Origin: Candidatus Rokuibacteriota bacterium
GTDB taxonomy: Bacteria > Methylomirabilota > Methylomirabilia > Rokubacteriales > CSP1-6
Reading direction: 5' to 3'
Length of the DNA stretch: 55,996 bases
Assembly (NCBI GenBank): GCA_003220435.1
Contig: QHSL01000082.1
Coordinates: 1 to 55,996 of the forward strand
In this document: piece after piece, positions 32,901 to 36,140 of the stretch
Numbering within the stretch: position 1 is the stretch's first letter
Layout of the letters: each line of letters begins with the position of its first letter
Position numbers and translations under genes: made by a program
The notes under the pieces: model-generated
What the model was told of the DNA's origin: nothing
What the model saw: only the letters and a program-made list of their open reading frames with translations
Database searches by the model: none

Positions 32901-33872
32901 ATGGACGTCGCGCTGCTCATCGGAATCTTTCCCCAGGTATTGCTCGACGGCATCACCCTCGGCTTCATGTACGCGCTGATCGCGCTCGGCTACACGATGG
33001 TGTACGGCGTCCTCGAGTTCATCAACTTCGCCCACTCCGAGATCTTCATCGTGGGCGCCTTCGTCGGCGTCGAGGTCATGCTCGGGCTCAAGAGCGCTGG
33101 CCTCCTCGATGGCCTGCCCTGGCCGGTCGTGCTCGTTCTGGTCCTGCTCGCCGGGATGGCCGGCAGCGGCTTCCTCGCCGTCACCGTCGAGCGGGTCGCC
33201 TACCGTCCCCTGCGCAACGCGCCCCGGCTGATCCCCCTCATCTCGGCCATCGGGATCTCCTTCTTCCTGCAGGACATGATCCGGCTCTTCGAGTCGCTCT
33301 GGCGGAACGCCTTCAACCTGGTCTATCCGACGCTCGACGCGCTGAATCTCAGATTCGAGCTGACCGAGACGCTCGACGTCTCAGTGAAGTCGCTCGTCGT
33401 CATCGGCGCCGCGCTCGGCATGCTGTGGCTGCTGCACATGATCGTCAACCGCACGAAGGTCGGCACCGCCATCCGCGCCGTCGCCGAGGACCAGGCGGCG
33501 GCGAGCCTCATGGGGATCGACGTCAACCGGATGATCTCGCTCACGTTCCTGATCGGCGGCGCGATGGGCGGCGCCGCCGGCGTCCTGTTCGGCGTGCAGT
33601 ATGGGCTGATCAATCCCTACAGCGGCTTCATCCCCGGGCTCAAGGCGTTCACCGCTGCGGTGCTGGGCGGCATCGGCAACATCCCCGGCGCGATGGTGGG
33701 CGGGTTGGTGCTGGGGCTCCTGGAAGCGTTCGCCGCATCCTATCTCTCGCTGCTGACGGGCGGCGCGTTCGGCGCGGAGTACAAGGACATCCTGGCGTTC
33801 TCGATGCTGATCCTGATCCTGATCTTCCGCCCCAAGGGGCTGCTGGGCGAGGTCGTGAGGGAGCGCGCATGA
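32901..33872 (+). CDS. livH: Branched-chain amino acid ABC transporter permease LivH
   Basis: An inner-membrane permease of 323 residues with about eight hydrophobic helices. The BPD_transp_2 pattern is clear: QVLLDGITLGFMYALIALGYTMVYGVLEFINFAHSEIF at the start and KAFTAAVLGGIGNIPGAMVGGLVLGLLEAF near the end, the latter contacting the ATPase. ATG 32901 was chosen over the TTG two codons upstream. The end overlaps livM by four bases (ATGA). Confidence 0.94.
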   Translation: MDVALLIGIFPQVLLDGITLGFMYALIALGYTMVYGVLEFINFAHSEIFIVGAFVGVEVMLGLKSAGLLDGLPWPVVLVLVLLAGMAGSGFLAVTVERVAYRPLRNAPRLIPLISAIGISFFLQDMIRLFESLWRNAFNLVYPTLDALNLRFELTETLDVSVKSLVVIGAALGMLWLLHMIVNRTKVGTAIRAVAEDQAAASLMGIDVNRMISLTFLIGGAMGGAAGVLFGVQYGLINPYSGFIPGLKAFTAAVLGGIGNIPGAMVGGLVLGLLEAFAASYLSLLTGGAFGAEYKDILAFSMLILILIFRPKGLLGEVVRERA

Positions 33873-35059
33873 TCCAGGCGCTCGTGGCCGTCGCCCTGGT
33901 CGGCGTCTCGGCGCTCGCCGTCGCGGTCTATCCGCGTTCGGTGCTGGTGTTCCTGCTCTTCCAGGGCTCGATCTTGTTCGCGTATCGCGCACGAATCCCC
34001 GAGTGGCTCCGCTGGAGCCTGCTGGCGGCGGCGCTCCTCGTGCTGATGCCGGTGATCGGCTACTTCAACGGCTACTACCTCGAGGTCGCGACCCAGGTCG
34101 GGATCTTCGTCGCGCTGGCGCTAGGGCTGAACATCGTCGTCGGCCTGGCCGGGCTGCTGGACCTCGGCTACGTGGCCTTCTTCGCCGTCGGCGCGTACAC
34201 CTGGGCGATTTTCGGCTCCCCCCACGCCAACGTCGTCTTCGGCGGCGAGAGCTTCCCGCTGGCCGGCGGGTGGTTCTACCTGTTCCTGCTGGTCGGTCTC
34301 GGCGTGGCGGCCCTCACCGGGGTGCTGCTGGGCCTGCCGGTGCTCCGGCTGCACGGCGACTACCTCGCGGTGGTCACGCTGGGCTTCGGCGAAGTCATCC
34401 GCGTGCTGGCCAACAATCTCGACAAGCCGATCAACCTCACCAACGGGCCGAAGGGCATCACGCCGATCTCGCGTCCCCCGGCGCCGCTGGGACTGCCGTA
34501 CGGCGAGTACTTCTACTTCCTCGCCCTGCTCATCGTGGTCGTGGTCGTCCTGGTCAACCGACGACTCGAGGACTCGCACATCGGCCGCGCGTGGGAGGCG
34601 ATCCGCGAGGACGAGCTGGCGGCGCGGGCGATGGGCGTGCCGCTGGTGCGGATGAAGCTCATGGCCTTCGCCTGCGGCGCCTCCTTCGCAGGGATCATGG
34701 GCGTGCTGTTCTCGGCCAAGCAGGTCTTCATCAACCCGGAGTCGTTCACGTTCCTCGAGTCCATCGGCGTCCTCGCGATGGTCATCCTCGGCGGCATGGG
34801 CTCGATTCCCGGGGCGATCCTCGGCGCCACCGTGGTGACGGTGTTGAACCTCCAGGTCTTGAAGGGCTTCTCGCTCTGGCTCAACGAGCTGAAGAACGCC
34901 GGCGTCACCGTGCTCGGCTTCAGCCTGGCCGATCTGCCCACCCAGTTCGAGCCGGCAAAGTACGAGCGGATGGTCTTCGGCATCATCCTCGTGCTGATGA
35001 TGATCTATCGCCCCCAGGGGATCTTCCCCGCTCGCCGACGCCAGCGCGAGATGCAATGA
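33869..35059 (+). CDS. livM: Branched-chain amino acid ABC transporter permease LivM
   Basis: The second permease subunit, 396 residues. Around ten hydrophobic segments include the family start YYLEVATQVGIFVALALGLNIVVGLAGLLDLGYVAFFAVGAYT and the ATPase-contact loop WEAIREDELAARAMGVPLVRMKLMAFACGASFAG. The C-terminus ends YRPQGIFPARRR, as usual. It starts at ATG 33869, overlapping livH. Its stop codon is followed within 2 bases by the 66-bp repeat array that separates it from livG. Confidence 0.95.
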   Translation: MIQALVAVALVGVSALAVAVYPRSVLVFLLFQGSILFAYRARIPEWLRWSLLAAALLVLMPVIGYFNGYYLEVATQVGIFVALALGLNIVVGLAGLLDLGYVAFFAVGAYTWAIFGSPHANVVFGGESFPLAGGWFYLFLLVGLGVAALTGVLLGLPVLRLHGDYLAVVTLGFGEVIRVLANNLDKPINLTNGPKGITPISRPPAPLGLPYGEYFYFLALLIVVVVVLVNRRLEDSHIGRAWEAIREDELAARAMGVPLVRMKLMAFACGASFAGIMGVLFSAKQVFINPESFTFLESIGVLAMVILGGMGSIPGAILGATVVTVLNLQVLKGFSLWLNELKNAGVTVLGFSLADLPTQFEPAKYERMVFGIILVLMMIYRPQGIFPARRRQREMQ

Positions 35060-35060
35060 A

Positions 35061-35360
35061 GCCGGCAAGCATCTCTCTCAGGCCCCCCCCGGTGGCACCG
35101 ACCTCCCAGCACTCGATACAAACAAAGCCGGCAAGCATCTCTCTCAGGCCACCCCCGGTGGCACCGACCTCCCAGCACTCGGTACAAACAAAGCCGGCAC
35201 GCATCTCTCTCAGGCCACCCCCGGTGGCACCGACCTCCCGGCACTCGATACAAACAAAGCCGGCAAGCATCTCGCGAAACGGGATGTCCGCAGGATCGGA
35301 GCCGGCACGCATCTTTCTCAGGCCACCCTCGGTGGCAGCGGCCTCCTAGCACTCGATACA
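35061..35360 (+). repeat. 66-bp tandem repeat array between livM and livG
   Basis: Three full units begin at 35061, 35127 and 35193 with a period of exactly 66 bases. A shortened, diverged unit (35259-35300) and a last unit (35301-35360) follow. Each unit opens GCCGGCA-GCATC, carries TCTCTCAGGCCACC-type sequence with a GCCACC-CCC-GGTGGC hairpin, and ends ACTCGATACAAACAAA. The last unit runs into the livG start, ACTCGATACA-ATG. Because 66 is 22 codons, frames stay open through it (ATG 35056 to TAG 35349 would encode a 97-residue repeat peptide, K-P-A-x-I-S-L-R-P-P-P-V per unit). There is no usual gene here. A related sequence lies at 55952-55996. Confidence 0.9.
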
Positions 35361-36140
35361 ATGGCTCTCTTCGAGGCCCAGCGCGTCACCAAGCGGTTCG
35401 GCGGCCTCACCGCGCTCCATGCGGTCGACTTCGCGGTCGACCGGGGCATCTCGTCGATCATCGGGCCGAACGGCGCCGGCAAGACGACGCTCTTCAACAT
35501 CTTCACCGGCCTCTACGCCGCCGACGAGGGCGCCGTCACCTTTCGCGGCCGCTCGATCCTCGGCCTGCGCCCGGATCAGATCACGACGCTCGGCATCTGC
35601 CGGACGTTCCAGAACATCCGGCTCTTCGCGAACATGACCGCGATCGAGAACGTCCTGGTCGGCATGAACTCGCGAATCGCGCTCGGCTTGTGGGACGTGC
35701 TCTCGCACAGCCCGAGCTTCCGGCGGACGGAGACGGAGCTGGCGGCCCGCGCACTCCGCCTTCTCGCGCGCGTCGGCCTGCAGGCCAGCGCCAATGACGT
35801 GGCGCGCAACCTCCCGTACGGCGATCGCCGCCGGCTCGAGCTGGCCCGCGCGCTCGCGTCGGAGCCCGCGCTGTTGCTCCTGGACGAGCCGACCGCCGGC
35901 ATGACGCAGGGCGAAGCAGGCGCGCTCATGCGCCTCCTGCGGGGGCTCGTCGCCGATCTGGGGCTCGCGATCATCCTGATCGAGCACAACATGCGTGTGG
36001 TCATGGAGGTGTCCGACTGGGTGACCGTGCTCGACCACGGCGAGCGGATCGCCGAGGGCTCGCCGCGCGAGGTCCAGGAGAACCCGCGCGTCATCGAGGC
36101 TTACCTGGGCACCCGCACTCCGGGACGGCGCCGTGCTTAG
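35361..36140 (+). CDS. livG: Branched-chain amino acid ABC transporter ATP-binding protein LivG
   Basis: A 259-residue ABC ATPase that drives LivHM from the cytoplasm. Walker A is GPNGAGKT (35-42). The Q-loop/FQN segment is ICRTFQNIRLFANMTAIENVLVGM. The signature is degenerate, LPYGDRRRLELARAL, as usual for LivG, and Walker B is LLLLDEPTAGM. The C-terminal YLG motif is present. The ATG sits directly on the last 66-bp repeat and has no visible Shine-Dalgarno sequence, so its translation may differ from its neighbours. The 3' end overlaps livF by 8 bases. Confidence 0.95.
   Translation: MALFEAQRVTKRFGGLTALHAVDFAVDRGISSIIGPNGAGKTTLFNIFTGLYAADEGAVTFRGRSILGLRPDQITTLGICRTFQNIRLFANMTAIENVLVGMNSRIALGLWDVLSHSPSFRRTETELAARALRLLARVGLQASANDVARNLPYGDRRRLELARALASEPALLLLDEPTAGMTQGEAGALMRLLRGLVADLGLAIILIEHNMRVVMEVSDWVTVLDHGERIAEGSPREVQENPRVIEAYLGTRTPGRRRA

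Follow-up and report, generated by a model that had tools for sequence, protein, structure and literature searches.

The stretch of DNA analysed here (the window, 55,996 nucleotides of contig QHSL01000082.1, from a Candidatus Rokuibacteriota bacterium) carries a tandem array of 66-bp units between livM and livG, two genes of a branched-chain amino acid transporter operon. The question raised by this locus is what kind of element the array is, and how neighbouring operon genes accommodate it. An earlier note, made from the letters alone, had offered three readings: a mobile or expanding repeat, an RNA-processing or attenuation element, and a small repeat peptide gene.

The array between livM and livG

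Tandem Repeats Finder placed the repeat at 35059-35273 (period 66, 3.3 copies, 95% match) and, read from the sequence, the whole array extends over 35059-35360 (Table 1). The names livM and livG agree with the Pfam matches. The three exact-period units of the earlier note are present in full, while its two altered units are one stump and one diverged unit; the hairpin that it placed in each unit is a GCCACC...GGTGGC palindrome that only units 2, 3 and the last have in full, unit 1 reading GGCCCCCCCCGGTGGC there and the stump being without it. The sequence confirms that the last unit runs through ATACA straight into the livG ATG, and we agree by eye that no Shine-Dalgarno-like run is found immediately 5' of livG. 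The ORF that had been suggested to start at 35056 was also found: it has 97 codons and its stop (TAG, 35347-35349) lies 11 nt short of the livG start.

The overlap between livH and livM is an ATGA (33869-33872; livH stop/livM start), and that between livG and livF is 8 nt (36133-36140) if livF starts at GTG 36133. livM-livG is the sole opened junction of the four consecutive genes livH to livF, since the other junctions overlap.

Table 1 Features of the livM-livG junction and of the second repeat copy in the window.
Feature	Positions	Strand	Remarks
livM (permease)	33869..35059	+	stop TGA 35057-35059; Pfam BPD_transp_2
left stop/start quartet ATGA	35056..35059	+	livM stop TGA and bridging-ORF start ATG
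bridging ORF, 97 codons through the array	35056..35349	+	stop TAG 35347-35349
repeat unit 1, 66 bp	35059..35124	+	
repeat unit 2, 66 bp	35125..35190	+	
repeat unit 3, 66 bp	35191..35256	+	
17-bp stump of a fourth unit	35257..35273	+	
23-bp spacer GCGAAACGGGATGTCCGCAGGAT	35274..35296	+	by eye like the TTGTCCGC leaders preceding some CGGAGCC-type units elsewhere
diverged last unit, CGGAGCC type	35297..35360	+	ends ATACA, directly against livG ATG 35361
livG (ATP-binding protein)	35361..36140	+	Pfam ABC_tran and BCA_ABC_TP_C
second repeat copy, truncated where the contig ends	55948..55996	+	letters the same as those of the copy ending contig C42 (L023)

The livM-livG junction was compared in eight genomes of the genus (the window being L048). 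One genome has one unit and one decayed unit (L050), and two junctions were read as eroded repeat remnants (L052, L053). In the four orthologs with an array, a unit or a remnant, the distances are 305, 109, 59 and 58 nt and the bridge stops 10-11 nt before livG. The junction is without the array in L054 (11-nt gap) and L049 (4-nt gap); L051 and L055 have a clean junction, TAGATG, in which the genes do not overlap by 4 nt. L049, the closest relative at livG, looks like a deletion derivative, gains and losses not being distinguishable at this locus.

A lineage-specific family of short dispersed repeats

The livM-livG array belongs to a family of short repeats that are scattered through the genome and specific to one lineage. 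Used as a query, it matched 45 places in its own genome, itself counted (E ≤ 0.001; 40 of 58 first-look candidates were scored). The core CAGGCCACCCTCGGTnnnnnCCGGCCTC was found with up to three mismatches at 58 places elsewhere in the genome (reversed control pattern, 0), which supports a repeat that is dispersed and expanding, in line with the first reading of the earlier note; the units of the window are not among these 58 matches because their loop is one base shorter. The same search matched 37 of 99 genomes: 35 of the 57 genomes of the own family, and two of the 42 outside it with one three-mismatch match each, although single matches mean little, since the reversed control matched once in each of three of the 99 genomes. 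With at most one mismatch and two more free bases, the core was present in 31 of the 57 family genomes and in none of the 38 other genomes of the phylum searched (control pattern, 0). Core matches per family genome range from 0 to 108, and their distribution is patchy by genus. A scan of named genomes returned at least 101 stretches, and the 80 among the matches listed all belong to Candidatus Rokubacteria or Rokuibacteriota assemblies. The titles and abstract openings searched in the literature held no account of such repeats.

Some contigs end inside element copies or within about 60 bases of them (the right end of the window, L023, L026, L033); the right end of the window is identical in sequence to the end of contig C42, and therefore the repeats probably broke the assembly.

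Unit structure and genomic position

The units are mostly 65-66 bp long and typically end in ...GCTACA against an ATG. Aligned copies consist of ATGA or CGGA, NGCC..., a CAGGCCACCCNCGG core, a short loop, CCGGCCTC and ...CCGCTACA, the right end adjoining a start codon in many of them; no terminal inverted repeats were seen by eye in the aligned units. Two main forms are distinguished by the left end, ATGA and CGGAGCC, some of the CGGAGCC units being preceded by a CGGGCGTG or TTGTCCGC leader. The right-end consensus is GCTACA (GTAG on the other strand), and the variants TTACA, ATACA and CTCCA occur.

Copies lie mostly upstream of co-directional genes, and often adjoin the start codon. The genome of the window has 41 clusters, of which 39 were assessable: a sense gene lies downstream in 31, and an antisense gene or a tRNA in eight. 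The right ends of 252 parsed units were classified: 79 adjoin a start codon in front of non-repeat DNA (that frame being best-scoring and open in 69), 21 lead into another unit, three are at an edge and 149 have no start codon within 1 nt. What follows these 149 units is another unit (57), a sense gene further on (49), an antisense gene (28), no coding signal (10) or an edge (5). At the left side, where an ATGA end follows non-repeat DNA (20 units), its TGA ends, in frame, the upstream open frame with the best score in 17. TACAAT was considered as a -10 box and rejected: the adjoining start codon was judged, partly from the N-termini of the proteins, to be the true start of mutL, sucC and rplW.

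Several other arrangements were seen. An element adjoins the 3' end of a tRNA-Met gene in antisense at L024 (own genome) and L110 (G019), and another adjoins the tRNA-Tyr 3' end at L045 (own genome), also in antisense, filling the gap before tRNA-Gly. The CCCCGCTACAACA-like right end is itself tandemly repeated a few times after the unit at L047, L020 and L044, and at L017 and L022 the core lies between inverted left-end copies (CGGAGCCGGCTCGC or CGGAGCCGGCAAG), as if able to flip. A second repeat, GGTTGTCCGCGGACCGGAGCC-like, precedes CGGAGCC-type units at L024, L034, L025 and L028 and is tandem in some. At L143 (the same-genus genome G003), the gene upstream of sucC seemingly has no stop and continues through the element into sucC as an open frame of 843 aa, which looks like a gene fusion brought about by the repeat.

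Empty and filled sites at rplD-rplW

The rplD-rplW junction was readable in 49 of the 50 genomes with a match. The 4-nt overlap of coupled gene pairs is present as such at 36 of the 37 sites without a recognised element (13 of these 36 have the start 3 nt behind that of the alignment; the remaining site, G037, has a 97-nt spacer with AGGAGG), and is reached via a bridging ORF at all 12 filled sites, where the ORF opened by the upstream quartet terminates precisely at the TGA within the downstream quartet. The quartet distances of the filled sites are 65, 98, 107, 113, 128, 130, 134 (three sites), 152, 188 and 239 nt, and the 130-nt insert is bridged in two steps through an intermediate ATGA; the 12 genomes belong to four genera (g1, g4, g18, g22) and are not all independent. 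The units reported by a loose pattern match at three junctions with a gap of -4 or -7 (G015, G009, G023) were read as chance matches in rplD, because there is no room for an insert.

Frame and length across many junctions

Unit length was analysed in the ATGA-bounded units (72 of 74 rows; G035 and G036 were left out, judged by eye not to be this element). The length is 65 nt in 59 units and 66 nt in 10, with 59, 62 and 71 nt once each. A length of 2 mod 3, with which the ORF terminates in the following ATGA, is thus shared by 62 of the 72 units; the ten 66-nt units read on in frame and count against this rule. The lengths left and right of the core compensate, being 24/45 in 47 units and 25/44 in 12. 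The CGGA-type units, which are without the left ATG, measure 66 nt in 39 of 56 cases and are 2 mod 3 in only 10 of 56 (Fisher test against the ATGA-bounded units, 2.6e-15); comparison within the same loci gave 19 of 23 for the ATGA type versus 10 of 56 for the CGGA type (9.9e-8), both p-values being optimistic because units share descent. Units with another left end (102 of the 252, 24 of them with a start codon) are partly mis-parsed ATGA units and were kept outside this comparison; 10 of these 24 are 2 mod 3.

At the level of junctions (those listed under several locus ids were merged by their flank letters), 102 co-directional junctions were collected, the upstream stop being ATGA, GTGA or TTGA in 80 and another stop in 22. 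ATGA is enriched as the upstream stop (58 of 102 junctions versus 142 of 658 gene ends, p = 1.5e-12), the background comprising every scored gene end of the window and of the named loci, whether or not in operons. A strict definition of the element kept 73 of the 80 [A/G/T]TGA junctions and 14 of the 22 others (7 and 8 failed). The distance is 2 mod 3 at 57 of the 73 (binomial p = 5.9e-15, orthologous loci kept in) and at 2 of the 14. When the looser set of 80 was reduced by grouping similar downstream proteins and drawing one junction at random from each group, the figure was 39 of 56 (p = 3.5e-8).

The gap is bridged exactly at 63 of the 73 strict junctions (53 in one step, 10 by chained ORFs), against 10 and 11 of 73 in the frame-shifted controls, in which one or two bases were removed in silico. 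As for the other ten, the ORF reads on in frame at five, stops within 11 nt at four (the window locus included) and stops 55 nt short at one. Only exact bridging is informative, since in-frame read-through is easy in GC-rich DNA (44 of 73 in one shifted control); a looser count that adds in-frame read-through and stops within 11 nt reaches 72 of 73 and was set aside as evidence, since it rises to 16 and 55 of 73 in the shifted controls.

Element-free junctions with an upstream [A/G/T]TGA served as a small and imperfect control (n = 37): 8 are in frame 2, 7 in frame 1 and 22 in frame 0, the last being probably mis-called starts whose true start is at the quartet. Among element-free junctions with other stops, 23 of 51 are in frame 2. 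The positions of the copies, the empty sites and the conservation of frame and length are direct observations.

Bridging ORFs and a proposed role in translational coupling

Coupling by termination-reinitiation at ATGA and GTGA overlaps is described in PMC6728339 and PMC10666635; like the junctions analysed here, it involves these stop/start quartets and tolerates very short distances only. As reported in PMC10666635, no spacing of co-directional prokaryotic gene pairs is on average more common than such 4-nt overlaps; in the native pairs of that study, from E. coli and Haloferax, a stop-start spacing of 13-14 nt cut coupling by 40-80% and one of about 20 nt almost completely abolished it. Overlapping Haloferax pairs were strictly coupled in 9 of 9 cases tested (PMC6728339). 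Genes separated at such a site by 61 or more inserted nucleotides would accordingly be expected to lose their coupling if nothing carried ribosomes across. On paper the bridging ORF provides such a carrier, and it stays in frame although its length differs from genome to genome.

We consider it fairly probable that the repeat occupies stop-start overlaps, is kept by host selection where a bridging ORF preserves coupling, and spreads by means of an enzyme. The element often sits at the 4-nt overlaps (ATGA or GTGA) of operon genes, where its insertion is expected to break termination-reinitiation coupling; the upstream quartet would double as the stop of gene 1 and the start of a short ORF, and this ORF would cross the insert and stop in the TGA of the gene 2 start quartet, or pass through further quartets. 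Host selection would keep the frame of the bridge and let its sequence and length drift. From the sequences we infer translation of the bridges, selection on coupling and movement of the repeat by an enzyme. Many copies depart from this simple scheme, among them the 149 of 252 parsed units with no start codon within 1 nt of the right end and the 22 of 102 junctions with another upstream stop, and the clean livM-livG junctions of L051 and L055 also speak against it. At the livM-livG junction the bridge stops 11 nt before livG; translation of livG, which lacks a Shine-Dalgarno sequence, would therefore depend on reinitiation, probably partial. Unlike plain ATGA/GTGA coupling, an added ORF, brought or kept by the repeat, would carry the coupling over a long insert.

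The quartets on both sides of the insert bear on how the repeat may enter. The strict junctions with an upstream GTGA (n = 18) have ATGA downstream in 14, GTGA in three and GTGG in one; no association between upstream and downstream quartets was detected (Fisher, 0.36), later mutation of the start codon being possible. A simple 4-bp target-site duplication thus found no support at GTGA sites. More probably the unit brings the right ATGA with it and enters behind the upstream TGA. The repeats may accordingly be read, though we hold this a little short of evenly balanced, as a new class of mobile or self-spreading repeat which targets the stop/start overlap, inserts behind the upstream TGA and brings a terminal ATGA and a relay mini-ORF.

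Alternative explanations

The family may instead be a REP-like element (GTAG in the reverse complement) spread by a RAYT or another Y1 (IS200/IS605-type) transposase, and the frame rule would then be only host selection on tolerated inserts; as a spreading route, this could be combined with the bridging of coupled genes. REP elements tagged GTAG and associated with RAYT transposases are likewise short, dispersed and palindromic, occur singly or in arrays and often have GTAG at one end, as the short palindrome, the arrays and the right end of the present family (GCTACA often, with variants) recall. We judge this unlikely, in view of the distribution of the transposase: Y1_Tnp (PF01797) is absent from all nine same-genus genomes and, among the 35 family genomes searched, from all 16 that are rich in the element (at least 20 core matches), while the six of the 35 that have Y1_Tnp hold 0 to 3 core matches. 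The present repeats also differ from GTAG REPs in having a larger unit, in often adjoining start codons, in being tied to stop/start overlaps and frame, and in occurring in a genus in whose nine genomes no Y1 transposase was found. REPs are described as 20-40 bp long in PMC3733652, whose abstract places them downstream of coding regions and whose text mentions neither 'start codon' nor 'Rokubacteria'.

A cis-acting RNA element (an attenuator, a processing site or a hairpin) setting the permease to ATPase ratio, the second proposal of the earlier note, appears quite improbable. Across 218 distinct units the CGG...CCG palindrome shows good conservation, a sense gene follows most clusters of the window genome (31 of the 39 assessable), and the two pairings tested, 13-18 (palindrome) and 24-29 (next stem), exceed all 2000 column shuffles; the excess is however small (0.78 versus 0.72 and 0.98 versus 0.96) and several slid pairs showed excesses of comparable size. 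Four folds (one unit on both strands, the last unit and the family consensus) did not stand out from shuffled sequence (z from -1.22 to +0.24), Rfam gave no match up to E = 1 in 34500-35900 of the window, and the frame rule is left unexplained by such an element.

The kept frame and the similar last letters of many one-unit ORFs (e.g. PASRTPLQ) would fit genuine small protein genes selected for their peptide, but variability by codon position is flat (entropy 0.74, 0.60 and 0.72), the frame in which the core is translated differs between units (GHPR in some, RPP in others) and the ORF of the window has no Pfam match. As frame and length are kept while codon-position variability is flat, the peptide does not look selected, and we regard such genes as very unlikely; the repeat peptide gene of the earlier note exists as an ORF and is better read as a bridge.

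Finally, a local slippage or assembly artefact, which near-identical tandem units and contigs ending within or beside copies might suggest, is hardly conceivable and is refuted by differing copies at unrelated genes in 31 of the 57 family genomes; the earlier note had tied slippage to a lack of further copies in the genome and an uninterrupted livM-livG junction in all relatives, whereas 58 further core copies and a junction varying within the genus were observed.

Relation to known repeats and significance

Rickettsia palindromic elements (RPE) are known from inside genes, where they tolerate or keep the reading frame. The Rokubacteria repeats resemble them in keeping a frame, and differ in lying mainly between genes and in opening their own ORF. 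MITEs are likewise small and present in many copies, whereas the present units have by eye no terminal inverted repeat and no parent element was found (the search being that for Y1_Tnp). We place the family among the short dispersed bacterial repeats, with a putative relay function suggested by the conservation of frame.

If this is true, operons can be invaded by a relay repeat without the uncoupling of their genes. The repeat would then be a natural experiment on a debated question, how far a terminating ribosome travels, and would reveal a 'safe harbour' for mobile DNA within operons. It would also mean that in some short ORFs written off as intergenic, selection acts on the frame and not on the product.
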